Below, piece by piece: positions 17,568 to 38,980 of a DNA stretch of 64,000 nucleotides (position 1 is the first letter of the stretch; the number at the start of each line of letters is the position of its first letter). A model generated the notes under the pieces. That model was not told the DNA's origin and did no database searches. It saw only the letters and a list, made by a program, of their open reading frames with translations. Position numbers and translations under genes: made by a program. Origin of the DNA: Lachnospiraceae bacterium (GTDB taxonomy: Bacteria; Bacillota; Clostridia; Lachnospirales; Lachnospiraceae); contig JAGBBM010000136.1 in NCBI GenBank assembly GCA_017938485.1, positions 37,036-101,035 of the forward strand. The letters are read 5' to 3'.

Positions 17568-17594
17568 AATATAATGTAAAAGGAGATACATATA

Positions 17595-18647: not shown

Positions 18648-18693
18648 CTTTTTGTACATATTTAACAAAAATATATTAATTTATTGAACTTTA

Positions 18694-18722
18694 TTGCAAA
18701 TATTAATGATTTGTTGTATTAT
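18694..18722 (+). promoter_or_regulatory. Predicted internal promoter before pilC
   Basis: TTGCAA at 18694-18699, a 17-base spacer and TATTAT at 18717-18722, in the 134-base gap between pilT and pilC. It would allow the platform and pilin genes to be expressed apart from the two ATPase genes. Confidence 0.5.
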
Positions 18723-18781
18723 TACTCTAGATACAATTTGTTAATAATTTGTTCATAAAATTTTGGGTCGGAGGAATTAAA

Positions 18782-19987
18782 ATGGCACAATACAATTATA
18801 GGGCTATGGACAAAAACGGTAAGGCAAAAAAAGGTACCGTTGAAGCCGTAAATGAAGAAAAAGCTAAAGAAAAGCTTAAGTCCGAGGGTTACGTAATTCA
18901 AGAGATTAAAGAACAGGGTGCAGGAGGTCGTAAACTCGGTGGCAAGAAGGTTAAGGATAAGGATCTTGCTGTTTTCTGTAAACAGTTCGTATCAGTACTT
19001 AATGCTGGTGTTACTATTATAGCGGCACTTGAGATGATGTCAGAACAGATGGATAACAAGACATTGCAGAGAGGCCTTAGAGAAGCTCAGGCTTTTGTAC
19101 AAAAGGGTGGTACTTTGGCGGATGCATTTAAACTTAATCCTAAGATATTCCCACCTATACTTATTAACATGGTTGCAGCAGGTGAGATGTCAGGTAACTT
19201 AGAGACATCTTTTGAAAGACTTACCGAGCACTTCGAAAATGCCAACAAGTTAAAGTCAAAGGTTAAGGGAGCTATGACATACCCTATAGTTATTCTTGTT
19301 GTAGTTATTGCAGTAGTGGTTGTTCTTCTTATGACAGTTATTCCACAGTTTGCTGATATGTTCAAGGATATGGGTGCTGAACTTCCTATGGCTACACAGA
19401 TGCTTGTAAACTTTAGTGAGTTCTTACAGGCTAAGTGGTATGTAGTTGTTATAATTGTTGCAGCAATTATCTTTGGTCTTAGATGGTTTGGTAAGACTGA
19501 ACCGGGTTCCCTTCTTTATGCAAAGATGGCGCTCAAGGCTCCTCTTTTTGGAACTCTTGTTATAAAGAATGCGGCAGCTACTTTCTCAAGAACACTTTCA
19601 ACTCTTATGGCATCAGGTATTCCTCTCATGGATGCTATAGAGCAGGTTGCGAGAATGATTAATAACCGTATCATAAGAGAAGGCTTGCTTGATGCGAAGG
19701 TTCAGGTTGCAAAGGGTGTACCTCTTTCAAAACCAATTAGAGATATGGAGATATTCCCACCTATGCTTGCACAGATGACAAAGATTGGTGAGGAAACAGG
19801 TAACATCGAAGAGATGATGGATAAGGTTGCTGACTACTACGAGATGGAAGTTAACAACACAACAGATGCTCTTACAGCTATGATGGAGCCTATGATTATC
19901 GTACTTATGGCAGTAGTAGTTGGTGGTATCGTTATCGCAATTTACTCACCTATGCTTGGTATGTACGATGCTATCGATAGTTACTAA
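18782..19987 (+). CDS. pilC: Type IV pilus inner-membrane platform protein PilC (GspF family)
   Basis: 401 residues in the standard PilC plan: two homologous cytoplasmic helical domains (about 65-190 and 265-390), each ending in membrane segments, three in all. N-terminal YNYRAMDKNGKAKKGTVEA and the repeated FPPILINMVAAGEMSGNLE / FPPMLAQMTKIGEETGNIE motifs are diagnostic. It forms the rotor on which PilB and PilT act. I chose the ATG at 18782 because of the strong GGAGG seven bases upstream; an upstream ATG at 18749 overlaps that site. Codon use is notably biased, as for well-expressed genes. Confidence 0.95.
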   Translation: MAQYNYRAMDKNGKAKKGTVEAVNEEKAKEKLKSEGYVIQEIKEQGAGGRKLGGKKVKDKDLAVFCKQFVSVLNAGVTIIAALEMMSEQMDNKTLQRGLREAQAFVQKGGTLADAFKLNPKIFPPILINMVAAGEMSGNLETSFERLTEHFENANKLKSKVKGAMTYPIVILVVVIAVVVVLLMTVIPQFADMFKDMGAELPMATQMLVNFSEFLQAKWYVVVIIVAAIIFGLRWFGKTEPGSLLYAKMALKAPLFGTLVIKNAAATFSRTLSTLMASGIPLMDAIEQVARMINNRIIREGLLDAKVQVAKGVPLSKPIRDMEIFPPMLAQMTKIGEETGNIEEMMDKVADYYEMEVNNTTDALTAMMEPMIIVLMAVVVGGIVIAIYSPMLGMYDAIDSY

Positions 19988-19996
19988 AAGGGATAT

Positions 19997-20022
19997 AAGT
20001 CGTTGGGCGAGGACGGCGACTT
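19997..20022 (+). other. Short inverted repeat in the major pilin leader
   Basis: AAGTCG (19997-20002) can pair with CGACTT (20017-20022) around a G-rich 14-base loop, 38 bases before the pilin ATG and 10 bases after the pilC stop. No T-run follows. It may be a 5' stabilising or processing stem; a weak call. Confidence 0.3.
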
Positions 20023-20059
20023 TATCATATATATTTTATAAAAGAAAAGGAGAGATATT

Positions 20060-20668
20060 ATGAAGAAAAACAACAAAGGTTTCTCACTCGTTGAGCTTAT
20101 TATCGTTATAGCTATCATGGCTATTCTTGCAGGTGCTATTGCACCAGCTCTTATCAAGTACATTGATAAGTCAAGAAGATCTAACGATGTAACATCTGCT
20201 AAGGCTATCAAGACAGCTGTTGAGACAGCTCTTGGTACAGAGTCTTACTATGAGCTTCTTACTACTGGTACTGCTGATGCAGTTATCACAGTTACTCCAG
20301 GCAAGTCTACATCATCAGGTAGCGGCGGTTCAGATGCTGTATCTATCTCAGTTACAAGTCCACAGACTGATACAGACGGAACTATCAACGGTAAGACTGT
20401 TGAGGCACTTACAACTGCATGTGAGAAGTCAATCGCAACTACTATCGGTGAGAAGACACCAAAGCTTAAGTACAGAAAGAATGCTACAGATCCTAAGGGT
20501 AAGACTGGTGCAAACGACGTTCCTACAAAGTTCGTTGCAACTGTAACTAAGGGTGGTACAGTAACTGTATATATCGCATCTAACTCAGCAAACTTCACTA
20601 GTGCAGATGCTGATAACACAGGAAAAGCTTGGGAAATTTCACCAAATATGTGTGAAGAGTATCAATAA
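20060..20668 (+). CDS. pilA: Major type IV pilin (prepilin)
   Basis: 202 residues. The seven-residue leader MKKNNKG is followed by FSLVELIIVIAIMAILAG, a class III signal with the processed Phe1 and the essential Glu5, cleaved by the prepilin peptidase encoded next. After the N-terminal helix comes a Ser/Thr/Gly-rich globular domain (TSSGSGGSDAVSIS) with two Cys residues at about positions 116 and 198 that could form the D-region disulfide. The gene is placed just after pilC and before pilD, has an AAAGGAGA ribosome-binding site and strongly biased codons, and is followed by a hairpin, all consistent with the abundant subunit. The major role is inferred from position and codon use. Confidence 0.88.
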   Translation: MKKNNKGFSLVELIIVIAIMAILAGAIAPALIKYIDKSRRSNDVTSAKAIKTAVETALGTESYYELLTTGTADAVITVTPGKSTSSGSGGSDAVSISVTSPQTDTDGTINGKTVEALTTACEKSIATTIGEKTPKLKYRKNATDPKGKTGANDVPTKFVATVTKGGTVTVYIASNSANFTSADADNTGKAWEISPNMCEEYQ

Positions 20669-20695
20669 GATATAATTTTAATCTAGTATAGCTTT

Positions 20696-20721
20696 ATTCC
20701 ACCTGATTCGCCAGGTGGAAT
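20696..20721 (+). terminator. Strong hairpin after the major pilin gene (attenuator or mRNA stabiliser)
   Basis: A perfect 10-bp stem, ATTCCACCTG (20696-20705) with CAGGTGGAAT (20712-20721), and a six-base loop. Only a weak TTTA follows rather than a T-run, so partial termination or 3'-end protection of an abundant pilin message is more likely than full termination. Confidence 0.6.
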
Positions 20722-20765
20722 TTAGCTGTATTATTATACAGTGAGGCAGAAAGGTTTTATTCGAG

Positions 20766-21524
20766 ATGTTAGAGGTTTTTATAAGTATAATATTTGGATT
20801 ATATGGAGTGGTTATAGGAAGTTTTTTAAATGTCCTTACTCTTAGAATACCCCTTAAGGAGAGTGTAACCTTAAAACGTTCCCATTGTATGACTTGCGGT
20901 CATACCCTTAGTTGGTATGAGCTTTTTCCGTTATTTAGTTATATATTTTTAGGTGGTAAGTGCAGGCATTGCAAGTCTAAGATATCAATTCAGTATCCTC
21001 TTGTGGAAGGATTGAATGGTATATTGTATGTCATAGTATTCCTCGTTCATGGCGTAAGTGTAGAAACTATACTGTATTGCCTGTGTGCATCCGCCTTAAT
21101 TGCGCTTAGTGTTATAGATTGGCGCACCCAGGAAATCCCTATGGGATTTAACATATTTATATTACTTTTAGGACTGGTTAGACTGATTACCGACTTAGGT
21201 AATTGGAGTCAGTATGTAATCGGTTTGTTTGCAGTCAGCGGTTTTTTATACTTACTGTTTTTGATAACTAAGGGCAGAGGCATAGGAGGCGGCGACATAA
21301 AACTTATGGCAGCAACCGGCTTACTGTTAGGCTGGCAGCTTAATATTATAGCATTTTTGTTAGGCTGTGTTCTCGGTTCGATTATACATCTAACACTGAT
21401 GGCTGTTAAAAAAGCTAACAGAGTGTTAGCTTTTGGCCCATACCTTTCAATGGGCGTTTATATAGCAATGATATGGGGTGAGCAGCTTGTGAGCTGGTAC
21501 CTGAGTATGTGGGCTACCTATTAG
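20766..21524 (+). CDS. pilD: Prepilin peptidase / N-methyltransferase (A24 family)
   Basis: 252-residue polytopic enzyme that cuts prepilin leaders and methylates the new N-terminus. The N-terminal cytoplasmic loop has the paired cysteines C41xxC44 and C66xxC69 of the bifunctional form. The two catalytic aspartates are in the segments VIDWRTQEIP and GGGDIKLMAA. About eight membrane segments. ATG at 20766; no strong ribosome-binding site is seen (GAGGCAGAAAGG lies 12 to 20 bases upstream). It should act on all five prepilins in the locus. Confidence 0.93.
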   Translation: MLEVFISIIFGLYGVVIGSFLNVLTLRIPLKESVTLKRSHCMTCGHTLSWYELFPLFSYIFLGGKCRHCKSKISIQYPLVEGLNGILYVIVFLVHGVSVETILYCLCASALIALSVIDWRTQEIPMGFNIFILLLGLVRLITDLGNWSQYVIGLFAVSGFLYLLFLITKGRGIGGGDIKLMAATGLLLGWQLNIIAFLLGCVLGSIIHLTLMAVKKANRVLAFGPYLSMGVYIAMIWGEQLVSWYLSMWATY

Positions 21525-21574
21525 TCCTTATAATATTTTTTAAAATCACTGATTAGCGAGGGAGGCTATAAAGA

Positions 21575-23167
21575 ATGGCAAAAAAGATTAATAAGGTGTT
21601 ATCAATTGATATCACAAATGAGAGTATTACAATAATCGAATTAACTGCTTCAGCTAAGAAGCAAACTAACATTCACAATGTAATTATTTTTGAAACTCCA
21701 GAGGATTCTTACGAAGATGGAATCATCAAGGAGCCTGAGAAGATAGCAAATGCTATCAGAGAGCAATTAGTAGCGAGAGGAATCAACAATAAGAATGCAG
21801 TGTTTGTTCTTTCGTCTACTAAGATTGTTAACAGAGAGGTTGTAGTGCCTTTCGTAAAAGAGAATAAAATCAGAGGAATCATCAATGCAAACTCATCAGA
21901 GTATTTCCCTGTAAATATAGAGGATTACGTGGTTTCTCACTCAGTACTTGAAACAGTTATTGACGAGGAAAACAACAAACAGCTTCGTGTTCTTGCGGTA
22001 GCAGCACCACAGCAGATGGTTAGATCATACTATGATCTTGGTGCTATGGCAGGTCTTAATGTAGTGGCACTTGACTACATTGGTAATGCTATGTTACAGC
22101 TTATCAAGACTCAGACAGCTGCAAATACAACAACTATGGTAATCCAGTTAGGAAGCGAGTCAACAGTACTTAATATCGTACAGGGTGACAACCTTCTTCT
22201 TCAGAGAACAGTGCCATATGGTACTAACTCAGTAGTAAACGTAGTAATGGACGAGAAAGGTGTAGATGCAACTACAGCTATGACATTACTTCAGAACGAC
22301 AGACTTATCACAGTTGACTTCGATGACAACGAGGCAACTGGTGCATTTAGATATCTTATTAACAATATTGGTCGTGTTATGGACTATTATGCTACAAAGA
22401 ATCCTGATAAGCCTATCGAGGATGTGTTCCTTACAGGCGATGGTGCCCTTATTAGAGGTATAGACGGACTCTTTAAGATTCAGCTTAATGTAAGCACTCG
22501 TATCATGGATAGTTTGTATAACATTAAGTTCGACCCAAGTATTGACCTTAAGGTTTATAACCCAGTATATCTTGTAACTCCTATCGGTGCAGCTTTTGAT
22601 CCTATGGGATTTGAATTAGTGGATACAGCATCTAAGTCTAGTGGTGGGCTTAATATAGGTATTGCTCCGTTTGTTGCACTCTTTGTTATTGCAGCAGGTG
22701 TTTCTGCATTCTTAGCCTTTACTTCTATTAAGGATAAGCAAGAAGCAGAGGATAGAAAAGCCGAGCTTGAGGCTGATATAGCAGAGATTAAGGATATTGA
22801 AGATCTCATTGTACAGTGGGAGGCTGCTCAGTCAACAGCTATTAATGCTGAGGCTATGTATGCTTCAACTTACCACTTGAATGAGAATGTCAAGACATTT
22901 ATAGATGAACTTGAGTCAAAGATTCCATCAGATATGTATATAACAGGATTTACATCATCAGATTCAGGTGTTTCTATTCCTTGTGTAACTACTAATTATG
23001 ACTCCATTGCTGAGTTCATTATGCAACTTAAGACTATTGACTGTATAGCTAATGCTTATGTACCAAGTCTTACAAAGACTGTTGATAAAAATACTGGTGA
23101 TGTTACTTTCACTTTCTCAGTATCAGCAGTGTATGTGCAGCCTGTAGTTGAAGAAGTTACAGAGTAG
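21575..23167 (+). CDS. pilM: PilM-PilN fusion protein
   Basis: 530 residues. Residues 1-345 are an actin-like PilM domain (VLSIDITNESITIIEL at the N-terminus as the phosphate-1 loop; VIQLGSESTVLNIV as phosphate-2; GDGALIRGID as the adenosine motif). Then one membrane segment at about 360-383, a coiled coil to about 425 and a PilN-like extracytoplasmic domain. Separate in Pseudomonas and Neisseria, the two proteins are joined here, so the PilN N-terminal peptide that PilM normally binds is replaced by a covalent link. GGAGG lies before the ATG. It forms the alignment complex with the downstream PilO-like protein. Confidence 0.85.
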   Translation: MAKKINKVLSIDITNESITIIELTASAKKQTNIHNVIIFETPEDSYEDGIIKEPEKIANAIREQLVARGINNKNAVFVLSSTKIVNREVVVPFVKENKIRGIINANSSEYFPVNIEDYVVSHSVLETVIDEENNKQLRVLAVAAPQQMVRSYYDLGAMAGLNVVALDYIGNAMLQLIKTQTAANTTTMVIQLGSESTVLNIVQGDNLLLQRTVPYGTNSVVNVVMDEKGVDATTAMTLLQNDRLITVDFDDNEATGAFRYLINNIGRVMDYYATKNPDKPIEDVFLTGDGALIRGIDGLFKIQLNVSTRIMDSLYNIKFDPSIDLKVYNPVYLVTPIGAAFDPMGFELVDTASKSSGGLNIGIAPFVALFVIAAGVSAFLAFTSIKDKQEAEDRKAELEADIAEIKDIEDLIVQWEAAQSTAINAEAMYASTYHLNENVKTFIDELESKIPSDMYITGFTSSDSGVSIPCVTTNYDSIAEFIMQLKTIDCIANAYVPSLTKTVDKNTGDVTFTFSVSAVYVQPVVEEVTE

Positions 23168-23186
23168 TGATAAGGAGGGTTAAGAT

Positions 23187-24281
23187 ATGACACAGAGCAA
23201 TTTAAAACTTATATTATTTTTACTTAGTGTAGTTATGATTGGTGGCGTGTATATGTACGTATATAAGCCAAATTCAGAGGAAACAGCAACCATAGAGAGT
23301 GATTGTGCTGCTCTCGAGACAAGACTTGCAGACCTTAAAGCAAAAGAAGCAAACAGAGCTCAGTATGAGGCAGATATTGTTGCTTACAATGAGAAGGTTG
23401 AAGAAATCGTTTCTTATTTTCCAGCAACTTTAGACCAGGAGCTTTCTGTTATGTTTATAAAGGGCGTTGAGGATGCTCATGATGGCGAGTTCTTAGTTGG
23501 TTCAGTAGGTCTTGGTGCACCAACACAGTTTTATACTCTTGGTGGCAATGTAGACCCTGAAACTGGTGTTGCAAATGGATATACTTGCTATGTATCTAAT
23601 ATGCCGATTTCTTATCAAGGTACTTATGATGGTATTCAGGAATTTATCGAGTATATTATGAATTATAAGTACAGAATGAATATTTCTTCTGTATCAATAA
23701 CATATGATGTGGAAAATGACATTGCTATGGGTTCAGTTAATCTCCATGCATACTGTGTATCAGGTGAGGGAAGAGAAGCTGATGAAGTTAACGTAGACGT
23801 ACCAAATGGTGTTGACAACCTTTTCATTGGTGGTGAGGGTGCAGCAGAGCAGACTTCATATCCATACGATGCTGATAATGGTGCTTCAATTGCAACAGAT
23901 AATAACGTTAAGATTCTTTTAAATAATGCAGCAAATGACACAGCTGATGGTATCATTGTTTCAGCTGGTGGTGAAGATACATATGTAACAAGTAGTGAGA
24001 ACAAGGTTGTTGCAGTAAACCTTGCTATTGAAGAGCAGGATGATAAGATTATGATGACTTACTCAATCGGTGATAAGTCATACTCAACAGAGGTTACTAC
24101 AGAGGATGTTACAATCTACGTAAAGTCATCAGACAGAGTAGATTCAGATGATAAGAATGGCGTTAAGCTTAATGTTGAGAATACAACAGATTTAAATGTA
24201 TTTATTAAGGTATCTGGTGATGACGCTACTTCACCAAGATTCTCAGTTGGTAGAAAGTTAGGTACTGTAGTAGTTTATTAA
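23187..24281 (+). CDS. pilO: PilO-like alignment protein with long C-terminal extension
   Basis: 364 residues: a membrane segment at about 7-27, a coiled coil at about 33-75, a ferredoxin-like PilO domain to about 195, then roughly 165 residues rich in Asn, Asp, Thr and Val with no match I recognise. Standard PilO is about 200 residues, so the tail is extra; it is predicted to face the cell wall. It starts 20 bases after pilMN behind AAGGAGGG. The PilO call rests on topology and position more than on sequence motifs. Confidence 0.72.
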   Translation: MTQSNLKLILFLLSVVMIGGVYMYVYKPNSEETATIESDCAALETRLADLKAKEANRAQYEADIVAYNEKVEEIVSYFPATLDQELSVMFIKGVEDAHDGEFLVGSVGLGAPTQFYTLGGNVDPETGVANGYTCYVSNMPISYQGTYDGIQEFIEYIMNYKYRMNISSVSITYDVENDIAMGSVNLHAYCVSGEGREADEVNVDVPNGVDNLFIGGEGAAEQTSYPYDADNGASIATDNNVKILLNNAANDTADGIIVSAGGEDTYVTSSENKVVAVNLAIEEQDDKIMMTYSIGDKSYSTEVTTEDVTIYVKSSDRVDSDDKNGVKLNVENTTDLNVFIKVSGDDATSPRFSVGRKLGTVVVY

Positions 24282-24298
24282 GAGAGAGGATGGAATTT

Positions 24299-25975
24299 AT
24301 GGCAAAAAACAATAATAAAGGTTTCAGTTTACTTGAAATCGTCGTAGCCATAACCATATTGACACTGCTTTTAACACCTATATTGCAGCAGTTGGCACAG
24401 ACAATGTCTACAAATCGTAGAACTAAGGAACAGCAGTATGCCAACGAAAACGCAGAGTATGTTTTGCAGTATATGCAGGCAACTCCACAGGAGGATATAG
24501 CAACAAGTGCTAGTGCGTCACCAGACCTTTACTATACGAATGCGGATTCTACAGTTGAGGCAACACGTCAGTGTAAGTTATGTTATGTTGATGCTAGTGG
24601 TGCTGTACAAAATGTATATGTGGATGCGATTAACACTGCAGTTGTGGATTATAAGACATATACCTATGCAATTAACGATATTGAGTTAGGACCTAGACAG
24701 ACCGTTTATAATAGAACAGTAGTAATGGATGATTTATCAGTGAAGGTTAATTCCTTCACTGATAAGGATGGTAAAGCATATAGAATTTCCTATAATAATT
24801 CTGTAGCACCAGAGGGGTACGAACTTACAGATGAGGGTTGTATAGTAAAGTATGAGACCTTAACTGATGTAGACGTGGATGGTGATGGTGAAGATGATAG
24901 ATATATATCAGAAATTATTTGCGAGGAATATTCAGGCGCTGCATCAACCAATCCAAATGAGCTCAATATAGGTAATATGCATGATTTAGATGCCAGCCGA
25001 ATGGCTCTCATCAATGGTTATGCTACAGAGTATGATGATCAGGCTAGAGATGATTTTTATTTGGAAATCATGGAACTATACAAGAATAGTACTGTTAAGG
25101 ATGATAGAGATAAGTGGACTCAGGAAGTAAATGGACAGAATGCTATTGCTAGTACCAATTATGCTTCAAATATTAGAAAGCTTACTATTCTTAATATTAT
25201 TAAGGATGATACAAATAACTGTTATACAATTAGTGTCGATGTTGTATATGAAGGCGATCTCAGTACAACTGGAGGTGTAACAAAGTTTGTACAGAAGCAG
25301 TATACAGCTTGGACACAGGAATTTCCTTATGATGTTGTAGATAATACTTGTCCAGAAATATATCTTGAATATCAGCCATTTTCAACTGAAACAGAGAAAG
25401 TGGCAGGTGTAGGTGGTTCTGTCGACATAGTAACATTCTATGCTAGCAAGGATTACTTACTTATAAATAATCAAGTTAAGGATGCAAAGATATATCTTTA
25501 TAAGCCTTTGTGGGATCAGGCAACAGCAACATACTATGATGTATCTCAGGCAAGTATTGTAGAAAGTCTGGATAATAATGATAATTATTATGTGACAAAT
25601 GACTATGCTGCAGATGCAGGTCATACTGCCAATATTACTAAGGTAAATGTAAATGTAGCTTCTGCAAATGCCATTACAGATGATAACAAGTTTACAATTT
25701 ACACTAGCTTAAATCTTCAGGATGACAGAGTTGCAACACCTATAAATCCTCAGTTTACTTATGATGTATCAATATTCACAACATCATTTAAGGATCGTAC
25801 AGATGAGGCCAATGTAAAACCTAGAATAGCATCGGCTATAGATTCTACTTATATTAAGGCTATTGATGAGGAAGAGTCAAAGGATGATAGATTGTTTACT
25901 GTAACAGTTACTCTTACACCTGAGGATGAGAATTGTAACTCAGTAACATTTACTGGAGCAAAGGGGGCGAATTAG
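24299..25975 (+). CDS. Minor pilin, PilV/GspI-like
   Basis: 558 residues. Leader MAKNNNKG, then FSLLEIVVAITILTLLL with Glu5, a class III signal with the Thr-rich helix typical of GspI/PilV-type minor pilins. The rest is an unusually long extracytoplasmic domain, Asp/Asn-rich, with an acidic DVDVDGDGEDD stretch near residue 195 that looks like a calcium-binding loop. Typical PilV is under 200 residues. An upstream ATG at 24290 is rejected in favour of 24299 for ribosome-binding-site spacing. A 13-bp perfect hairpin lies in the coding region at 24734-24765. Confidence 0.78.
   Translation: MAKNNNKGFSLLEIVVAITILTLLLTPILQQLAQTMSTNRRTKEQQYANENAEYVLQYMQATPQEDIATSASASPDLYYTNADSTVEATRQCKLCYVDASGAVQNVYVDAINTAVVDYKTYTYAINDIELGPRQTVYNRTVVMDDLSVKVNSFTDKDGKAYRISYNNSVAPEGYELTDEGCIVKYETLTDVDVDGDGEDDRYISEIICEEYSGAASTNPNELNIGNMHDLDASRMALINGYATEYDDQARDDFYLEIMELYKNSTVKDDRDKWTQEVNGQNAIASTNYASNIRKLTILNIIKDDTNNCYTISVDVVYEGDLSTTGGVTKFVQKQYTAWTQEFPYDVVDNTCPEIYLEYQPFSTETEKVAGVGGSVDIVTFYASKDYLLINNQVKDAKIYLYKPLWDQATATYYDVSQASIVESLDNNDNYYVTNDYAADAGHTANITKVNVNVASANAITDDNKFTIYTSLNLQDDRVATPINPQFTYDVSIFTTSFKDRTDEANVKPRIASAIDSTYIKAIDEEESKDDRLFTVTVTLTPEDENCNSVTFTGAKGAN
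24734..24765 (+). repeat. Perfect 13-bp inverted repeat inside a minor pilin gene
   Basis: TTATCAGTGAAGG (24734-24746) and CCTTCACTGATAA (24753-24765), six-base loop TTAATT. It encodes SVKVNSFTDK in frame and has no T-run after it. Confidence 0.9.
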
Positions 25976-28897
25976 TTGAAGAAAATATTTAAATTTAATA
26001 AAAAACTAGATAATCGCGGTTCCAGTATTATTATGGTAGTGGTTTCACTTGCTTTCATAGGAATTATTATCGGAGCATTACTTTCTGCAGCTTCTTATGC
26101 CTACAAGCTTAAACTCCAGAATTTAAATGCAAAGGATAATTTCTATTATGTAGAGCAGGCTATGCAGGAAATATATGCCGGTGTAGGTGCCAATACTATA
26201 GAAGAAATGAAAGATGCGTATGTCTATACCGTAGAAAATATGGTTAGATACGATTTGGAAAAAGGTATATATGTAACTATAAGTGATGAAGAAGCAAATA
26301 AGATGTTCAAAGAGAAATTCATGCAGAACATTATGGCTAATCCATATTTTAGTCAGGGTGCAGATACCCTTGCTACAACTCTTCAGAGTTACATAACTAA
26401 TGAAACTGTCGACCTTGATAATGATAAGATAAGTTTGGAAACTGTATATGATGGAAGTCAGCTTAAACAGATTATTATCAAGAATGTAACACTCACTAGA
26501 ATTCAGGATTATTCTAAGTCTGCTGGTAGTGGTACATATGTACAGACAATTTCTACGGATATTGTAATCAGTGAACCAGATTTTAAGGTTAGTTTTAACA
26601 ATATGGCGTCTGATTATTCTAAGATATTTGATTATGCCTTAGTTGGAGATATGGGTATAGAGATTATCTCTATGAACCTTACTCCTGGTGGTGATGCAGT
26701 TGCTAACACTAATAATATTTCAGCATTGACTAATTCATTGCAATTAAATATCAGTGGAAACTTATATGCTGGTGCAGATTATTATAACAAGGGTTACAAC
26801 GACAAGGAAGCTGTTGAGATGTCACAGGGTGACTATAAATATATGGTAGGACCTGTATCATCAAAGGTTCCTACAGTCACTGCTGAAGGGACAACAAGTG
26901 TTGTAACTACTTCATCAGGTTATGTTAATATTTATGCTTTGGATGCTGACGGGAAATATACAACTTTTAATGGTGAGAATGAGAAGAGTATGAATTCTGG
27001 TCTTTACATAAGTGGTAGAGATGTTTCCCTTATGGCGGAAACAGTTATTGTTCCGGGAACAATTGCTGTTATGGATACAGCTGAACTTACCATATTTGGT
27101 TCTCAAGGTGTTTCTCCTGAGGTATGGACAGATAACGTTGTGTTAGGTGGTAAGAGCGACATAGATACGACAGGGGCGTATAATGGTTCACAGTTATATG
27201 TGAGTGGTAACTTATATGTTCGAGATGATACCGAGATTAATGCTAGAGGTTCAAAGTTCACTCTTATGGGTTCATACTTTGGATATGGTAATAGTACATC
27301 AAAGGACAGTAGAGTATTTGTTCCAACTGTTGACTTAATTAATTTTGCTGTTACAACAACTACCTATGAAGGTACTACTGCTGTGACTACAACTGAGAAT
27401 AGAGGTCATTATAACAGTAGTTCAATTGTAATAAATGGTGAATCATCAACCCTTGATTTGAGTAAAGCTAGTTCACTTTATCTTGCAGGTAGAGCGTATA
27501 TTGAGCTTTCAAAGAAGGTTGATAGTAGTGCGTCAACAGAAACTGTGTACACAGAGACTTATTCTTTCGAGCCAGTATATACAACAACTGATAATAAGAC
27601 AAATTACATAAGAGATTATAAGACAGGTGAGAGTATCTCTGTTAAGAGTAATCAGCTTATGTATAATGTGTCAGGTCTTGGTGCAGAGGCAACAGTAGAG
27701 GTTGGTGGAAAGACATATACAGCTGTACATGTTAACACCAAATATACTGAACCAGCTGAGATTGCATTGGGCAACAAAGGTTTTTTTGCGAGATTTTTCC
27801 CTGTAGAAATCTTTGGTAACAATGTTCTTGCAATAAAGGAGAAAGTTGGAAACAAGACAGTATATTATATAGATCTCGCAACAGGTTATCAGGTATTAAA
27901 AGAAGTAATTGCTAATGAGTCTAATTTATATTCAACTGCCCAAGTTGAGGCAGCAAAGAGAACATTACCTGAAACTATTGATTCTGAGTCGGATTTTGTT
28001 CAGACATATGTAGCTCTCTATGAAAATGCTATAGAAACTAATCCAAAAACCGAATTACTTGATATTATCAATTATGAGGATTTTGATCAGGGATTATTAG
28101 CTATAAATGATTCAATTACTGCAAATATATATTCAGCTGGTGCCATTACAACTAGAAAGTATTCAACTGGAGCTTTGACAACACCAGAAAATCTTGAGTT
28201 TACTCTTGTAACCAGTGGAGTGGAGGACATTCCAAGTAAGTTACTTAATGATGCAGCATATAGTTCAAATGCCAATGCGTTTGATATGTCTGCAGATTTA
28301 GAGAAAGAGTATAACTACATTAAGTGGAATTTGGATCATTATGATGTGTCAAGTACAGAGAAGACATTTGTTGATACAATGCTTGGAACAGAGGGTGAGA
28401 GTATTACACCTATAAACAAGTACATTGTTATGTCAAATATTGATAATGATAGAGACTTAACAGGTAAAGAGACTTTATCAGGATATAAGATATGGATATC
28501 TGACGAAGATGTAATCATTACTGGTGATTCTGTAATAAATGGTATAGTTATCTGTAAGGGTAATGTAACTTTTGGTTCAGATGTTGAGGAATTTAATGGT
28601 ATGGTTGTATCTGGTAGTAAGATTTATATAGGTGATAAACTTACTAAGTTGTCTGCAAGTCCATCTGTTTGTAGAGGTGTAATTAGAGATTGCATCTCAG
28701 CAACTGATGATCCAGATTCAGAATATATCTTAAAGTTGTTTAAAGAATATGAGAACTATGACCCAGCGATTAATGGCGTAGGTGGTTCTGGTGGAGTTGA
28801 TCCTACAACAGTTAATATCGATGCTATAACATATACAGATGTTGTTAGTATGACTAACTGGATGAAGAATGTAGGAGGTGACTATGATGGAAAGTAA
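25976..28897 (+). CDS. Very large PilX/GspK-like minor pilin without Glu5
   Basis: 973 residues. After the basic start and NRG comes SSIIMVVVSLAFIGIIIGALLSA: a pilin-like helix with a Gly before the likely cleavage point but with Met where other pilins have Glu5, as in the tip-capping GspK. The long exterior has repeating short strands with N-G and S-G turns (NISGNLYAG, LYVSGNLYVRDD, SIVINGESS, GIVICKGNVTFG, MVVSGSKIYIG), suggesting a beta-solenoid. The TTG start is preceded by AAGGGGG. The ribosome-binding site of the next gene is inside its last codons and the genes overlap by 11 bases. Function as a tip component is an inference. Confidence 0.7.
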   Translation: MKKIFKFNKKLDNRGSSIIMVVVSLAFIGIIIGALLSAASYAYKLKLQNLNAKDNFYYVEQAMQEIYAGVGANTIEEMKDAYVYTVENMVRYDLEKGIYVTISDEEANKMFKEKFMQNIMANPYFSQGADTLATTLQSYITNETVDLDNDKISLETVYDGSQLKQIIIKNVTLTRIQDYSKSAGSGTYVQTISTDIVISEPDFKVSFNNMASDYSKIFDYALVGDMGIEIISMNLTPGGDAVANTNNISALTNSLQLNISGNLYAGADYYNKGYNDKEAVEMSQGDYKYMVGPVSSKVPTVTAEGTTSVVTTSSGYVNIYALDADGKYTTFNGENEKSMNSGLYISGRDVSLMAETVIVPGTIAVMDTAELTIFGSQGVSPEVWTDNVVLGGKSDIDTTGAYNGSQLYVSGNLYVRDDTEINARGSKFTLMGSYFGYGNSTSKDSRVFVPTVDLINFAVTTTTYEGTTAVTTTENRGHYNSSSIVINGESSTLDLSKASSLYLAGRAYIELSKKVDSSASTETVYTETYSFEPVYTTTDNKTNYIRDYKTGESISVKSNQLMYNVSGLGAEATVEVGGKTYTAVHVNTKYTEPAEIALGNKGFFARFFPVEIFGNNVLAIKEKVGNKTVYYIDLATGYQVLKEVIANESNLYSTAQVEAAKRTLPETIDSESDFVQTYVALYENAIETNPKTELLDIINYEDFDQGLLAINDSITANIYSAGAITTRKYSTGALTTPENLEFTLVTSGVEDIPSKLLNDAAYSSNANAFDMSADLEKEYNYIKWNLDHYDVSSTEKTFVDTMLGTEGESITPINKYIVMSNIDNDRDLTGKETLSGYKIWISDEDVIITGDSVINGIVICKGNVTFGSDVEEFNGMVVSGSKIYIGDKLTKLSASPSVCRGVIRDCISATDDPDSEYILKLFKEYENYDPAINGVGGSGGVDPTTVNIDAITYTDVVSMTNWMKNVGGDYDGK

Positions 28898-29498
28898 ACC
28901 TAAGAGTAGACACCTTCTTAATAATAAAGGTTATTCTTTGGTAGAAATGATTATAGTTATTGCTATAATTGCTGTTATGACAGGTGTTGCTACAGTAACA
29001 GTAACACTAATTAACTCAGCAAGAGCCAAAGAAGCTGCCGTTACGTTTACATCGGAATTGTCTGATGTAAGTTCAAAGGCAAAGAATCAGATGGTAGTTA
29101 TGGAAGATGCATCTGGAAATAAGGTTAAATATCCTTCATATAGTTATTGTTTAAAGATATATAAAGAAGGTGGCAAGAATTACATAAAAAAGGGTTATTA
29201 TAATCCGGATGGTACTTCAGATGCTACAAAGTACATATTTATTGATTCAGAAAACAATAATGGTGGTAGAGGTATAAGCCTTTCGTCTAGAATAGAGATT
29301 AAGTATACAGATTCTACTGGAGTTGAAAAAACAATTTCAAACACAGCAGGTTCTAGTTCAGTAAAGGAAGTATATATAGTATTCGATAGAACTGGAAGAT
29401 GTATACTCGGTGATGGAGATTACAACTTCTATAAGACAAATAGTAGTCTTGTTGCTACTGTTAGACTTAAGAAGAATGGTAGTTATCAAACAGATTAA
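28887..29498 (+). CDS. Minor pilin / pseudopilin, GspH/FimU-like
   Basis: 203 residues. A 15-residue basic leader ends in NNKG and is followed by YSLVEMIIVIAIIAVMTG, a class III signal with Glu5 and the type GspH/FimT pattern; Tyr at position 1 replaces Phe. The globular part has a Gly-rich turn (NNNGGRGISL) and a Cys near residue 171 that, with a Cys near residue 76, might form a disulfide. I chose the second of two adjacent ATG codons (28887) because AGGAGGT ends seven bases before it. Confidence 0.78.
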   Translation: MESKPKSRHLLNNKGYSLVEMIIVIAIIAVMTGVATVTVTLINSARAKEAAVTFTSELSDVSSKAKNQMVVMEDASGNKVKYPSYSYCLKIYKEGGKNYIKKGYYNPDGTSDATKYIFIDSENNNGGRGISLSSRIEIKYTDSTGVEKTISNTAGSSSVKEVYIVFDRTGRCILGDGDYNFYKTNSSLVATVRLKKNGSYQTD

Positions 29499-29513: not shown

Positions 29514-30464
29514 ATGAAGAAAAATAGTAAAAGTAATAGTGGTTTCACTCTTATTGAGTTGATAATTGCCATGGCTATGCTTGCGTTTGTAATGACTGCA
29601 GTTAGTTCTTTTATGGGTTCAGGAGTTTTAGGTTATAAAAAAGCTAAGGCTGATATAACCGTTCATAATTCAGCTCAGGAAACCTATAACAATCTTGTAG
29701 ACACAGCGATGCAGGCTAACGATATTATAATCTATGGTTATACCACTAAAGATGCTGATGATGAGATTGTGTTTGGTCTCGAAGGTGAGGATGTTAACGT
29801 TGAATTAAATTCTACTAAAGCCTATTACGTAAGAGATGATGCTCAGGCGGAGTACATTAAAAGTTCTGCAGAATATGATGGAACAGACAATTTTGTATTG
29901 TATAGTTCTTTACCTGCAGGTACAAAGATATATGCAGAAAAGATTATAGTAGAATCTGCGGTACCTTTTGACCCAGCTTATGCAACAGAGGCTGAGGCAG
30001 ACAAGTATAAAAATGCATTTTTGTCTGAGGCAGCAGGAGCAGATGTCACTATAGAGATTAAGCAGGAAGTACGAGTAAATAGTGACGGGTCAACAAGTGA
30101 TGTTACCTCAAGTATAGGCGAGAATGTTTATACTGAGAATGACACAATGAGGACTGTATTTACATTTGATGCTGAAAAATTATACTATGAGACAAAATAT
30201 GCTTATATGACAGCACTTAATGATTATTATACAGGCACTGGAGATTCTTTAGAGGATTATCTATATAGTGAATCCTTTAATTATAGCACAATAAAAGATG
30301 AAACCGGTGCAGAAACTGGTACTGTTACAGGTTGTATAGTAACTGTAAACCCAGCAGATGGTACATTTAGTTTCGACTTAAAGTTCTCTGATAAGAATAT
30401 GACATATAATTCTCAGGGTATGGTATTGTTTAGAAACTCATATGTATTAAGAGCAAAACAGTAG
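29514..30464 (+). CDS. Minor pilin, PilW/GspJ-like
   Basis: 316 residues. Leader MKKNSKSNSG, then FTLIELIIAMAMLAFVM with Glu5 and the Met/Ala-rich helix of GspJ/PilW proteins. The exterior is acidic with no Cys apart from one near residue 282. It is 15 bases after the previous gene with AAAGGAGTGG in between. With its three neighbours it completes a set equivalent to the GspH-I-J-K (FimU-PilV-PilW-PilX) priming complex. Confidence 0.78.
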   Translation: MKKNSKSNSGFTLIELIIAMAMLAFVMTAVSSFMGSGVLGYKKAKADITVHNSAQETYNNLVDTAMQANDIIIYGYTTKDADDEIVFGLEGEDVNVELNSTKAYYVRDDAQAEYIKSSAEYDGTDNFVLYSSLPAGTKIYAEKIIVESAVPFDPAYATEAEADKYKNAFLSEAAGADVTIEIKQEVRVNSDGSTSDVTSSIGENVYTENDTMRTVFTFDAEKLYYETKYAYMTALNDYYTGTGDSLEDYLYSESFNYSTIKDETGAETGTVTGCIVTVNPADGTFSFDLKFSDKNMTYNSQGMVLFRNSYVLRAKQ

Positions 30465-30483
30465 AAAGGGAGGTAATAGTATA

Positions 30484-33400
30484 ATGAAAAGAAATAAAAA
30501 GCTTACGATATTAGCTTTATCTATGATGCTTGTTATGACTCTTGCTGTTACAGTTATCTCTTTCACTTTTGCGGATAATGATAATAATGGTGCAGGAACA
30601 AGCACAGAGACAACAGATGTTGCCACAGGTGCAGCTCTTACCAATATAGATTATATTGTTAAGAACTCTCTTGATAAGGATGCGGAGATATACAAGATTG
30701 TAGAGATTGGTTCAAAGGCCGTTGCTATTGAAGATGGTGAGAGTGAGCCATATACTACCTTTGGTGAATTCGCAGAAAAGGGTGGATTCAAGGAGTATGT
30801 CATAAATGGCAACAAGACAATTGATGATGTTATGCCAGATGATAAGATAAATTATGTATACTATTATGCTGGTGCGGTGACATCTGATAATACTGCGGCT
30901 TTGGCAGATATCGCAAGCGCAGATTTTATTTATATCAGTAATGATTCTTCAAATCCATACACTAAGACAAATGATTTTGGTGAGGATTTATATAATCTCC
31001 TTCATGTGTATGCAGTAGGTGATTATAAGCCAATCATTATTGAGAGCCCTGCTGATAGTGGTTCGACTGATATCGGTGGAGGTGGTTCTTCAGGAACAGG
31101 AATTCTTTTTGATAACCTTGCTGTAGATTATTTCAAGGCAGAGGGTTATTTGCATAACACTTATGCTTGGAGAACGAGTGTATCAGCAACACAGTTCTAT
31201 GCAGGTAATAATTCACTTTTCATTAGCATAAGTGGTAGAGCTAAGATGGGCGGTTGGAAAAATGTAAAAGAGGATCCAGCAGCAGATACATTTGAGCAGA
31301 TGACAGAAATCCTTGTTGTAAGTAATGGTGGTGGAGCAATTAAGGCAGGTACAGCTACAAGATTTGAGCTTGCTTTAGATGGTGCTACTTCAGTTACTAC
31401 TTTAAGTGAGATTGATGCAACAAATGTGGCTAAAGAGATTGAGCTTAAGGCTAACCAGTCTCTTTATAATATTAAGAATACAGCACTCTATACAACAGGT
31501 TATAGTGCTAAGTATTCTGCATATAAGCCAGAGTATGCTTTAGTATCAGAAATATCTTTCGCTGATTTACAGAAAGATACTACTTTTGATTACAGCAAAT
31601 ATGACTTAGTTATTTTTGAGGATGATCTTAAGGGTAAGGATCTTTCAGATACAGAATTTTATAAGAGATTAGTTGGTGCGATGTACAGTAAGGTTCATAT
31701 CATTTTTGGTGATATATATACTGTAAGCAACAATGTTAATAATGGCTCAGGTAATTTAAATGTAGGTGATTCTACTAAGACAAATTATCATGAACTCTTC
31801 TATATGGTTGCAACTGAGGACGGTGTGGAGAGATATCCGAACGTTATGGTTACAACTAAGGCAGAGATGGAAATTATTATGTCAAGTAATAATGCAGGTA
31901 CTTGCAAGGTTATTGCGGACATAATCAATGGTGGTTCATACAGAGGAATCGGTGGACCAGGATCAACATCTACTATGTTTACAGTACTTGAGATTCAGCC
32001 ATGTTACCCAATTGATACTACTATTGCAGCTGCGAAGAAGGGATACTATTCCACACCATCAGAAATGATTAATGGAAAAACAAGAGAACAACTTGGTCTT
32101 AAGCTTGATGCTAATGGTAATACAGTTGTAGTTAATGCTGATGGTACTACTAGTGCAGTTGATGCAGATACAATTGAGTATTATGCTTGGGAGTTATCAG
32201 AGGCTAAGATTGCTGATGCTCTTAATATGGACGTAAGACAGATTAAGGTTGTTCATATGTCATCTGAGGAGTTTGCAACAAACAAGGATGAAGTTCTTGG
32301 AAACTATGATATGGTTTATATCGGTGGTAATACATCTGCTTTAAAACCATTAAATGAATGGCGTAGTATAGGTGCATTTGCAGATTTTGGATTTAAGATG
32401 GAAACTGCAAATAATAAGGAAATTTTACCTGTATACACTATGTACACCAATGTAGGTGATATGATGCGTAATGTTCTTGATGTTGAGGAAGGTCCTGTAT
32501 CAAGTGGTACAACTTTTAATGCAGCTCCAGGACATACATCAAGTGAAACATTTGTAACATTAAATGGTAATGATATTACTTACAATGGTTTAGAAGAATT
32601 AAAGGCTTTTGTTGCTGCTGGTATGCCTGTTATTATAAGTGATGATGTAAAGGCAGCTTATGATCCTATAAAGGCAAATATTGCAGCAAAGAAGAGCCCA
32701 TATTTACAGAATCAGATATCACCAGATTCCAATATGTATGATTTCCTTTTGTATTGTGACAATTATGATGATGATACAACAAAGGTAAACGTTATTTGGG
32801 GATTTGATAAGGATAGTATTGATTATGTTGATAATGATGGCGGTGCTTTAGGTGATACTTTAACTGGAGAGGTAGAAGTATTTGCTGGTGATGTGAATGA
32901 TGATGTTCATACCGATGCAAAGTCTGTATTGTATGATTTATATAATAATGCAAAAACAAGCAAGAGACCTAAACTTGCAGTTACAAGTATGCCAGCGGTA
33001 TACAATGTATATGATCCATCAACTAAGACAAAGACATTATCTCTTGCATATAAGTTCGATGTAGTAGGTACAAATAATTATGAAGTAAAACTTTATGCTG
33101 ACTACAGTAAGAACAGTATGTTTGAGGAGAGCGAGATAATTGCAAGCGGTGATAGTGTTAAGGAAATTACTGCAAATCTTGCGACTATAGAAAAATATGG
33201 TTCTGGATATTCTGGACCAGTATATTGGAAACTTGAAATTGTTGATAAGGCTTCTGGTGCTTCAGTAAGTACAGCTAAGCTTGCTTATGTGGAGACAAGT
33301 GATTCAACAAAGAAGACTGTCAGAGTTCTTCAGATTTTACCAGACAAAACTAGTGAAAAAGCTTATTCATACAAAGAGGGTGGAAACACATGGGTTAACC

Positions 33401-35955
33401 TTATTTTCTGTACAGAGTGTCAGAGAGCAATCGAGATATTAGACAGAAATCCATGGTATGGCGAGCAGTTCCTTAATAATGATAAGACTAACTTATATGA
33501 TGGTAAGATTAGTGATGATAGACTTGATGCTAATGGTTGTGCAATAGGTATATATACTGGTAAGCATGAACATAATTTTGGTATTGTAAGATACGATAGT
33601 GCAACTGGTATGGATGACTGGTATTATAACTATGCTGATGATGTATCTGATATGTTCGATTTCAATATCGATATTATGGACTCAAGAGAGTTTGAGGAGG
33701 CGTCACAGGCAGTTATTGATGAATTCAATGCATATGTAGCAACAAATCATCCAGAGTTGGATGTAGCTAATCTTACTGATGAGCAAATTGAACTTCTTAA
33801 GTCTGAGCTTCGTGATGTGGCAAATGTTGCTAAGGATGCTTATGATGCTCAGGTTAAGTTTGAGGATTTCTTCGAGGAGAATTATCCAGGCAGACAGTTT
33901 GTAAATTTATCAACTGAAGAGCTTGCATCTATTGAGACAGCATTAACTGGTTATGATCTTGCATTAGCAGAGTTTAACTTGAAGAAGTTTGTACTCAGTA
34001 TTAAAGATTCAACTGGTAATGATTACGCAAACAAGGCATTTAATAATATCTACAAGTCAGGTCAGTATGAAGATTATGTATTATACATAAGAGAGCTTAA
34101 TAATATGCCTGCTTATTGGCATTATGATGAGTATAAGGCATTATATGAGACATATGCACATGCTCTTGATGTTAGAATCGACCTTGAAAAAGAGTATGAG
34201 GAAGCTAATAGAGTTGCGAACTTTGACAATTGGTTATTCGGATGCTATGAGACAGTTGTTATCGGACCTGCAGAGTCATTCTGTGGTGATGATATTGAGA
34301 CAGAGGTGGCATTAAAGGCTCTTACTGATTATATCGATGCTGGTGGTAGTATGCTTATGTTCCATGATACATTGACTAAGTATTCAGACAATGGTGCTCA
34401 TAAGTTGACAGCAGCCTTGATTGATAAGTATGGTATGGATAAGAACCATATGGAGCTTGATGCTTCTCTTGCTGGTACATCCCAGAAGGTAACTGTTGAG
34501 ACAAAAGACTATATCATTGGAAATGACAAAGAGAATGGCAGTATTAAGGTTAACAATAAGGACTTTAATCTGCAGTTATCATCAAAGTATGATACTATTT
34601 CATTTGCTGTAAATTTAACAGGAGATATGAATATTAATAATGTTACATTTGGCGGAAATAGAATTGCTGCGGGTGAGAATATTGAGTACAGTATAACTGT
34701 ATATTCATCTAATGGAAATTTATTAAAGAATGGCAATGTAACTGCTGTAATCCATGGAAATACTTATACTGGAACAACAGATGAAAATGGAATAGTTAAG
34801 TTTGATGTACCAAACTATACAGTTAGAACTGAAGAAAAGACTTACACTGCCAACGATATATGGTTCTTACCATATAAGCTTAAGGATGGTTATAGTTCTA
34901 CAGAGTATAACTTAATTAACCTTTCACATAAGCCAACAACAGATACAAGCAGATTCTTTACATGGAAAGATGATATGGGTACAGTTCATGCTAGTGCTTC
35001 ATCACAGGCTAAGTACAAGTATTACTCACCAATCTATGCATTTACAGATGCAATGAATCTTGGTCACAACGATAACAGACCATATTCACCATATAAGTAT
35101 GCTTCTGTAAATATTAAGGCACTTACTGCAAATGGTTATACAGCTTTACCTGCGAACTTAGGTTCAAATAAGGCTAGTAAGACAAATAAGGGTATTATGA
35201 CTATGTTCCCATTCAACCTTAGTGATGAGCTTAACATAGCACCTACCCATCCACAGGCTTATGCACTTGACCTTCAGAATGATAACTTATCTGTATGGTA
35301 TACAATTGCTGGTGGTAGCAACAATAAGGCTGGTTCTGAGCTTCAAGCAGCTACACCACATGATGGTACAGATAACTACTTTATCTACTCAATAGGTAAT
35401 TTGAACTACTGTAGTGCTGGTCATACAAGAGTAACTGGTCAGTTAAAGGAAAACAACGATGAGAGAATGCTCTATATCAATGTTATCTGTAACTCAGTTA
35501 CAAATGTTCCAGTAACAGAAATAACTGCATTTGACTATTCATCAACAGATGATAATAGAACAAACAATGTAGTTAAGAAGTACGGTTCAGAGTATGTTAT
35601 GAAGCTTGATGAGTCAGTTACAAGACCATTCTTCTCCTTTGACTTTACTCTCGGCAACGGAGTTACACTTAAGGACATTAAGGTTTACTATGAGCTTGAT
35701 AATGTACTTGGATGTGGTGAGAATGATAAGTTGATTAAGAAGTATGGATCAAATGAAGTTACATCAGGTAAGCTTACATTTGTTCCTAAGGATTCTACAA
35801 CAGGTGAAGATTACGATAATCTCTTGATTGATCCATCATACCTTACTAACGGTAAGTATGTATATATTGTTATTCAGTTAACTGATTCAAACGGCAATAA
35901 GACATACAAGAAGATTAAAGTAGAGTATAAGGACAAATTATACAACTTAACTTAA
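30484..35955 (+). CDS. Giant secreted protein at the end of the pilus operon (possible tip adhesin)
   Basis: 1823 residues, the last gene of the locus. A signal peptide (basic MKRNKK, hydrophobic core, likely cut after SFTFA near residue 31) and no second membrane segment or LPXTG anchor. Recognisable pieces: a CTEC pair near residue 975; a segment near 1252-1315 with the strand-turn pattern VVIGPAES...YIDAGGSMLMFHD that resembles a ThuA/glutamine-amidotransferase-like fold; an Ig-like stretch at about 1385-1445 with TTDENGIVKF. Large proteins of this kind in Lachnospiraceae may carry DUF5057; I could not test this. A role like that of PilY1 is inferred from place and size only. GGGAGG precedes the ATG, and a strong terminator follows. 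Confidence 0.6.
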   Translation: MKRNKKLTILALSMMLVMTLAVTVISFTFADNDNNGAGTSTETTDVATGAALTNIDYIVKNSLDKDAEIYKIVEIGSKAVAIEDGESEPYTTFGEFAEKGGFKEYVINGNKTIDDVMPDDKINYVYYYAGAVTSDNTAALADIASADFIYISNDSSNPYTKTNDFGEDLYNLLHVYAVGDYKPIIIESPADSGSTDIGGGGSSGTGILFDNLAVDYFKAEGYLHNTYAWRTSVSATQFYAGNNSLFISISGRAKMGGWKNVKEDPAADTFEQMTEILVVSNGGGAIKAGTATRFELALDGATSVTTLSEIDATNVAKEIELKANQSLYNIKNTALYTTGYSAKYSAYKPEYALVSEISFADLQKDTTFDYSKYDLVIFEDDLKGKDLSDTEFYKRLVGAMYSKVHIIFGDIYTVSNNVNNGSGNLNVGDSTKTNYHELFYMVATEDGVERYPNVMVTTKAEMEIIMSSNNAGTCKVIADIINGGSYRGIGGPGSTSTMFTVLEIQPCYPIDTTIAAAKKGYYSTPSEMINGKTREQLGLKLDANGNTVVVNADGTTSAVDADTIEYYAWELSEAKIADALNMDVRQIKVVHMSSEEFATNKDEVLGNYDMVYIGGNTSALKPLNEWRSIGAFADFGFKMETANNKEILPVYTMYTNVGDMMRNVLDVEEGPVSSGTTFNAAPGHTSSETFVTLNGNDITYNGLEELKAFVAAGMPVIISDDVKAAYDPIKANIAAKKSPYLQNQISPDSNMYDFLLYCDNYDDDTTKVNVIWGFDKDSIDYVDNDGGALGDTLTGEVEVFAGDVNDDVHTDAKSVLYDLYNNAKTSKRPKLAVTSMPAVYNVYDPSTKTKTLSLAYKFDVVGTNNYEVKLYADYSKNSMFEESEIIASGDSVKEITANLATIEKYGSGYSGPVYWKLEIVDKASGASVSTAKLAYVETSDSTKKTVRVLQILPDKTSEKAYSYKEGGNTWVNLIFCTECQRAIEILDRNPWYGEQFLNNDKTNLYDGKISDDRLDANGCAIGIYTGKHEHNFGIVRYDSATGMDDWYYNYADDVSDMFDFNIDIMDSREFEEASQAVIDEFNAYVATNHPELDVANLTDEQIELLKSELRDVANVAKDAYDAQVKFEDFFEENYPGRQFVNLSTEELASIETALTGYDLALAEFNLKKFVLSIKDSTGNDYANKAFNNIYKSGQYEDYVLYIRELNNMPAYWHYDEYKALYETYAHALDVRIDLEKEYEEANRVANFDNWLFGCYETVVIGPAESFCGDDIETEVALKALTDYIDAGGSMLMFHDTLTKYSDNGAHKLTAALIDKYGMDKNHMELDASLAGTSQKVTVETKDYIIGNDKENGSIKVNNKDFNLQLSSKYDTISFAVNLTGDMNINNVTFGGNRIAAGENIEYSITVYSSNGNLLKNGNVTAVIHGNTYTGTTDENGIVKFDVPNYTVRTEEKTYTANDIWFLPYKLKDGYSSTEYNLINLSHKPTTDTSRFFTWKDDMGTVHASASSQAKYKYYSPIYAFTDAMNLGHNDNRPYSPYKYASVNIKALTANGYTALPANLGSNKASKTNKGIMTMFPFNLSDELNIAPTHPQAYALDLQNDNLSVWYTIAGGSNNKAGSELQAATPHDGTDNYFIYSIGNLNYCSAGHTRVTGQLKENNDERMLYINVICNSVTNVPVTEITAFDYSSTDDNRTNNVVKKYGSEYVMKLDESVTRPFFSFDFTLGNGVTLKDIKVYYELDNVLGCGENDKLIKKYGSNEVTSGKLTFVPKDSTTGEDYDNLLIDPSYLTNGKYVYIVIQLTDSNGNKTYKKIKVEYKDKLYNLT

Positions 35956-35972: not shown

Positions 35973-36003
35973 AGAGGCGAAGATAAATCTTCGCCTCTTT
36001 TTA
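35973..36003 (+). terminator. Terminator of the pilus operon
   Basis: A perfect 11-bp stem AGAGGCGAAGA / TCTTCGCCTCT (35973-35983 with 35988-35998), a TAAA loop and a T-run. It marks the end of the locus begun at 15776. Confidence 0.93.
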
Positions 36004-37887: not shown

Positions 37888-37917
37888 AATAATCCTCCTT
37901 AAAATCGCATATACCTA

Positions 37918-37946
37918 ATTCTAATATAAATGACATATTTTTTCAA
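37918..37946 (-). promoter_or_regulatory. Predicted SigA promoter of efp
   Basis: On the minus strand TTGAAA (37946-37941), a 17-base spacer and TAGAAT (37923-37918), 30 bases before the start codon. Confidence 0.5.
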
Positions 37947-37958
37947 CTATTTTTTAGG

Positions 37959-37986: not shown

Positions 37987-38006
37987 TATCTTAAGGGGTG
38001 AAAACT

Positions 38007-38969: not shown

Positions 38970-38980
38970 CAGGTATCATT

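Follow-up and report, generated by a model that had tools for sequence, protein, structure and literature searches.

The question raised by the locus described here is what role a very large secreted protein plays at the end of a type IV pilus operon. The locus lies in a 64,000-nucleotide stretch of DNA (the window) from a Lachnospiraceae bacterium (GenBank assembly GCA_017938485.1, contig JAGBBM010000136.1, positions 37,036 to 101,035 of the forward strand), and the 1823-residue protein is referred to below as BIG. An earlier note had put it forward as a tip adhesin unrelated to PilY1, an interpretation that is partly supported by the analysis presented here. BIG is probably a modular protein, not itself a pilin, at the tip of a type IVa pilus in a monoderm, that is to say, a functional counterpart of PilC/PilY1 rather than a homologue.

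The coordinates of all features are provided in Table 1. The chain contains a single hydrophobic segment (residues ~5-31), which by eye resembles a Sec signal with a putative cleavage site between SFTFA and DN. Past residue 60 there is no membrane segment, the best 19-residue hydrophobicity window reaching 1.1; the chain contains no LPxTG motif, and in the Pfam scan no N_methyl match, the mark of a class III prepilin signal, was found. The signal peptide and the lack of a wall or membrane anchor described in the earlier note are thus borne out. Only 19 bases separate the BIG start codon from the end of the preceding minor pilin gene. A hairpin with a T-tract lies right behind the stop codon, which makes BIG the final gene of the operon, following the minor pilins as the note had it.

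Judged by its gene content, the operon is type IVa-like. Note that the 364-residue protein encoded in the PilO position has no Pfam match and is labeled by its place only. In the mature 973-residue minor pilin a methionine replaces Glu 5, which is present in the major pilin and in the three other minor pilins. A missing Glu 5 is characteristic of both PilX and GspK. According to the Myxococcus working model given in passages of PMC7541494, PilX tops the minor-pilin complex and binds PilY1. Given that the 973-residue pilin is PilX-like and that BIG is encoded in its operon, BIG occupies the gene neighborhood that PilY1 has in diderms.

With regard to family, the suggestion that BIG might belong to DUF5057 (PF16480) proved correct. 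The profile matches with an E-value of 3e-18 and a score of 66.8 bits against a curated cut-off of 27.9, and there is a second, partial match at residues ~1215-1295. Nothing else in Pfam passes a cut-off in BIG. Similarly, 28 of 29 scanned relatives match DUF5057 at E ≤ 0.01. Membership in the PilY1 family was rejected: PF05567 matched neither BIG (E ≤ 1) nor the sets of 29 and 23 relatives (E ≤ 0.01), and the von Willebrand factor A (vWA) domain was likewise absent from these proteins in the Pfam scans, in keeping with the note's failure to discern a PilY1 propeller or a von Willebrand motif. A genome-wide search with PF05567 found none in 299 genomes, but no control genome matched either, so that this result is not proof of absence. 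The structure of BIG was modeled in two parts with a moderate mean predicted local distance difference test score (pLDDT) of 69.7 and 74.2. Foldseek searches with both halves yielded nothing at E ≤ 0.001, and neither a known enzyme fold nor a PilY1 fold, which the note had named as evidence against its proposal, was thus encountered. Profile matches to a nanobody and to BceA fragments in the PDB (E 0.007-0.45) were judged to be chance, leaving no credible PDB relative. DUF5057 has so far been only a domain of unknown function; no paper naming the family was found in a literature search, and no such protein was seen in the titles and opening lines of abstracts returned by searches on type IV pili of Lachnospiraceae/Firmicutes and on PilY1 or modular pilins. 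Its link to type IV pili, its tail and its modules are described in the following.

When used as the lone query, BIG gave matches in 53 of 299 Lachnospiraceae genomes (a first contig scan with the single protein gave no match); with a profile built from its C-terminal core, 66 of the 299 were positive. PilM-PilN is present in 105 of these genomes, including 63 of the 66 that are core-positive (the exceptions are G025, G045 and G255). Within the genus of the window BIG occurs in 29 of 37 genomes and in all 18 of those of good quality. Gene neighborhoods were collected from genomes (58) and from named records (80; mostly Lachnospiraceae or other Clostridia, with three titled Bacteroidales or Bacteroides), the latter being the best 80 of at least 114 confirmed relatives. 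The locus counts exclude L086, which has no BLAST match to the window protein. Removal of 16 duplicates from the 137 BIG loci left 121 distinct ones, and 17 of these had too little upstream sequence, such that 104 were assessable. In 101 of the 104, two or more of the six preceding genes are homologues of pilus genes, usually in the gene order of the window, and this tight linkage extends over many genera. The homologues are, therefore, not mostly encoded away from pilus genes, a finding that the earlier note would have taken as evidence against a tip protein. The three exceptions are L096, in which BIG lies directly behind PilB, PilT and PilC, L055 and L159. A scan of the phylum revealed DUF5057 in 5 of 299 genomes, namely that of the window, that of its congener and those of three members of one distant family of another class. 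In all three of the latter, the gene is flanked by the pilB operon on one side and the minor pilins on the other, both of which are encoded on the opposite strand. The linkage to type IV pilus genes is thus kept despite a changed orientation and reflects more than operon inheritance.

The second line of evidence is provided by the C-terminus. One pattern, roughly L-F-x-L-D/N/T-COOH and flush with the end of the chain, fits 113 of the 121 distinct relatives. Leucine is found at position -2 in 115, phenylalanine at -4 in 95 and leucine at -5 in 97 of them. The information content at -5, -4 and -2 is 2.9, 3.6 and 3.6 bits, respectively, as compared to 1.3 (median) and 3.1 (90th percentile) for 923 well-filled columns, and the BIG ending is the sharpest of the eight operon families compared. 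The final four residues lack order (pLDDT < 50) in a model spanning residues 940-1823. A tail that is conserved yet unfolded in the predicted monomer looks like a docking peptide.

The third concerns the size of the presumed partner. The PilX-like pilin is at least 669 residues in length in all 94 operons with BIG (86 and 8 from two locus sets), versus 3 of 10 without it (189-885 residues), where the ten include L228, a contig that ends before the place of BIG, and L222 was dropped for having no recognized minor pilin. We read the enlarged outer part of this pilin as the probable seat of BIG. In the three genomes of the other class the PilX-like pilin, in one case recognized by eye, contains 599-632 residues. 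The NWxK-type ending of the PilX-like pilin was considered as a BIG-specific partner motif and rejected, for it occurs in 81 of 98 operons with BIG and also in 4 of 10 without. The minor pilin immediately before BIG is itself often giant (600-1380 residues; L155:224-4366, L097:6096-9533, L168:3200-6088 and L171:2034-4916). Nine such giant last minor pilins were scanned; they carry the N_methyl motif, one adds immunoglobulin (Ig) domains, and no lectin was found.

Some relatives carry grafted modules. Pfam scans of 23 relatives (set A5, picked mostly by length and partly overlapping the 29-relative set A1) revealed a RicinB lectin in two (above the cut-off in L145, residues 814-886, E 4.1e-15, and below it in L129), an F5/8 type C domain in one (Blautia schinkii, L155, 3.2e-11, above the cut-off) and Listeria-Bacteroides repeats in three. 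In one of the 29 relatives there is a weaker match to the starch-binding CBM26 (1.7e-4). Most scanned relatives show no binding module. Lectin-type modules in some relatives are nevertheless what would be expected for a tip adhesin, and the presence of binding modules within a shared, pilus-linked scaffold is the strongest hint of adhesion.

We infer for BIG a location at the pilus tip, docking by its tail and a role in adhesion. BIG would be exported by Sec and, outside the membrane, would bind the PilX/GspK-like minor pilin, the subunit expected to top the minor-pilin complex. Docking would occur through the free C-terminal peptide, with the enlarged globular part of the pilin providing the seat. 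The growing pilus would then push BIG outward, allowing it to display a scaffold of related units and β-rich domains into which different species would insert modules such as a lectin, a carbohydrate-binding domain or a helical arm.

As described in passages of PMC7541494 and PMC10191384, PilC/PilY1 (PF05567), the tip adhesin of diderm type IVa pili, likewise has minor pilin genes in its operon, one of them for a PilX-like pilin that lacks Glu 5, and is, like BIG, a large, secreted, modular non-pilin with variable binding parts. BIG differs from it in the lack of a PF05567 or vWA match, in its units, in its conserved free C-terminal tail and in its occurrence in monoderm-type operons. The PilB and PilC proteins of Streptococcus sanguinis also provide a monoderm type IV pilus with grafted adhesive modules, but they are themselves pilins and carry a class III signal, whereas BIG is a Sec-type secreted non-pilin. 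In the relevant passages of PMC10191384 and PMC6916266, PilC/PilY1 is the named tip effector of diderm type IVa pili, and adhesion in S. sanguinis is ascribed to these modular pilins.

A broader proposal, to which we assign an even chance, is that DUF5057 proteins supply the missing non-pilin tip module of the type IVa pili of monoderms in two or more classes of the phylum, independent of PilY1. In the Lachnospiraceae they would be held on the enlarged PilX-like pilin by the tail and would form an interchangeable lectin/carbohydrate-binding platform for gripping plant fiber or mucus. If true, the role of PilY1 arose more than once, a domain of unknown function gains a function, and a molecule that may let many gut commensals attach can be named. 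Given the conserved tail and the large PilX-like pilin, binding could be tested directly in named relatives that carry the gene, which include Roseburia faecis, Butyribacter intestini, Lachnospira multipara and Blautia schinkii (loci L123, L124, L151 and L155, respectively).

Several observations weigh against a tip adhesin. By Pfam, BIG of the window itself has no recognizable lectin or other binding module. In L055 the BIG gene (L055:7181-13911) stands alone between comM and dprA with no pilus genes in the fetched stretch, and L086, an order-level match, is a protein rich in Ig domains that has a short DUF5057 fragment and no recognized pilus gene nearby. The three genomes of the other class lack the LFxLD tail and end in DRY or NRY. 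The ending of the PilX-like pilin is conserved as well (Y-x-N-W-x-K, 3.2 bits at -4), that of the 206-residue pilin more weakly, and those of the others little. The statistics for the length of the PilX-like pilin with and without BIG (Mann-Whitney 2.7e-5; Fisher 6e-10, with an eleventh BIG-free pilin added, that of L225, 300 residues and assigned by eye) are uncorrected for shared ancestry. Finally, 42 genomes of the family have PilM-PilN without the core profile; 19 of these were inspected, which together with G278 (core present) gave 20 further type IV pilus loci. Seven of the 19 still encode a secreted-looking protein of 726-1778 residues in the place of BIG, five recognized by BLAST and two (L215 and L223) by place and an FMLD or FTLH ending only. 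The other 12 have no such protein (the L228 contig ends early, and no minor pilin was recognized in L222), and thus the pilus can be built without BIG.

Type IVb pili secrete TcpF or CofJ, and the substrates of the type II secretion system are presented to GspK. BIG could by analogy be a released cargo, a soluble effector riding the pilus tip with its terminal peptide docking only transiently on the tip pilin. TcpF and CofJ are soluble, their genes accompany those of a pilus, and a terminal peptide may attach them to the tip pilin; the conserved peptide of BIG is C-terminal, and BIG is several times larger. BIG is a soluble secreted protein encoded among minor pilins, its terminal peptide resembles a docking signal, and PulA and TcpF are grouped with PilC as non-pilin, tip-located effectors in passages of PMC10191384. 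We consider release unlikely, however, in that a very large multi-unit scaffold with carbohydrate-binding inserts fits display better, and a monoderm would presumably need no pilus for releasing a Sec substrate. It is quite unlikely that BIG is embedded in the wall or stays at the cell surface, aiding passage of the pilus through the peptidoglycan or forming a collar. Monoderms are without secretin and outer-membrane parts, wall crossing is called open in passages of PMC6916266, and BIG is encoded within the assembly operon. Yet it has no recognized wall-binding Pfam domain and no LPxTG motif, it is missing from the 12 loci mentioned above, and such a role does not readily account for the inserted lectin modules.

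A DNA-uptake pilus, whose tip protein would capture DNA for natural transformation, is highly unlikely. Although 33 of the 121 loci adjoin comM, dprA, topA, codY or flgB (often just before them), with comM within the next two genes in 15, and the solitary L055 gene has both comM and dprA as neighbors, the remaining 88 show none of these in the sequence covered, which is often short. The window locus is followed by genes for an M24 peptidase, EF-P and spoIIIA, and the lectin-type modules point to glycans. Least of all would we expect a pilus-borne enzyme, with unit 3 as an enzyme or small-ligand site of the ThuA/amidotransferase type: His 1294 and His 1589 are invariant and Asp 1295, Asp 1627 and His 1647 nearly so among 56 sequences, and a local profile alignment with two ThuA sequences, located at the expected strand, scores 24.3 versus ≤ 17.7 in 60 column shuffles, but its probability is 2.8%, and no amidotransferase-like match is among the 50 Foldseek matches listed for either half. 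The ThuA/amidotransferase-like piece seen in the earlier note at residues ~1252-1315 is weakly supported by that local match; Pfam gave no ThuA match, and Foldseek none at E ≤ 0.001.

These residues lie in unit 3, where conservation is strongest, and suggest a binding or catalytic pocket. The chain is divided into three units that begin with strand motifs resembling one another (VEI, VLEIQP and VLQILP). The main alignment comprised the window protein and 72 of 80 relatives (at least 1150 residues, uncut); set A3 took 55 of 72 relatives and A4 took 46 of 59. An arrangement of three equal repeats was rejected: units 1 and 2 and units 2 and 3 match by profile, units 1 and 3 do not (probability 1.9%), and the relatedness of all three hangs on unit 2. 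The two β-rich domains match each other weakly (1.9e-4, probability 47%), where all E-values from single-pair hhalign comparisons, including those in Table 1, are nominal. In the models, these domains are more credible β-rich parts than the Ig-like domain that the note had placed at residues ~1385-1445; its position is unsupported, with residues 1330-1411 having a pLDDT < 50. The calcium-type loop D-x-N-x-DG-x-F occurs anywhere in the chain in 49 of 80 proteins and is degenerate in BIG of the window; calcium binding by it is a guess. The helical insertion in unit 3 is present in the clade of the window, and many alignments within the genus break near 1143/1219.

Table 1 Features of the pilus locus (window positions, residue numbers of BIG)
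Feature	Position	Strand	Basis or remark
pilB, pilT, pilC, major pilin, pilD, pilM-pilN fusion and 364-residue gene	15846..24281	+	Pfam, except 364-residue gene
561-residue minor pilin	24290..25975	+	N_methyl match
973-residue PilX/GspK-like minor pilin without Glu 5, proposed partner of BIG	25976..28897	+	N-terminus
206-residue minor pilin	28878..29498	+	GspH-like N-terminus, below curated cut-off
316-residue minor pilin	29514..30464	+	N_methyl match
Ribosome-binding site AAAGGGAGG	30465..30473	+	Read from sequence; ~10 bases 5' of BIG ATG
BIG open reading frame, DUF5057 protein closing the operon	30484..35955	+	1823 residues, ATG start, open throughout
Putative Sec signal peptide, 1-30	30484..30573	+	Only hydrophobic segment of the chain; cleavage by eye
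Unit 1, ~58-500, opens VEI	30655..31983	+	Alignment; profile match to unit 2, E 1.1e-5
Unit 2, ~497-780, opens VLEIQP	31972..32823	+	Alignment; profile match to unit 3, E 1.1e-10 over 35 columns
DUF5057 match, 696-1073	32569..33702	+	PF16480 profile
β-rich domain, ~826-945, degenerate calcium-type loop near 869	32959..33318	+	Model, weak profile match, loop alignment
Unit 3, ~944-1680, opens VLQILP; holds H1294, H1589, D1627, H1647	33313..35523	+	Conservation, model
Helical insertion in unit 3, ~1067-1245	33682..34218	+	Model; varies within genus
Most conserved core, 1564-1680	35173..35523	+	Alignment; source of the core profile
C-terminal β-rich domain, ~1679-1815	35518..35928	+	Model
Tail LYNLT, 1819-1823, proposed docking peptide	35938..35952	+	Pattern in relatives, model
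Intrinsic terminator	35973..35998	+	Perfect 11-bp stem and T-tract, starting 18 bases 3' of BIG stop

A few loci deserve separate mention. Two tandem DUF5057 genes (1633 and 1661 residues) end a single type IV pilus operon in L067:5170-15300. Three pilus operons free of DUF5057 also encode large proteins. That in L224:1143-6851 ends with a 1699-residue protein having an LPETG-type anchor and preceded by a 188-residue gene product that by eye is signal peptidase-like. The minor-pilin regions of L225 and L230 contain open reading frames of 2475 and 1396 residues with a prepilin-like start or a pilin match. Directly downstream of the pilus locus in the window (37330-39475) come the EF-P gene, which is encoded on the other strand, and the beginning of the spoIIIA sporulation operon.
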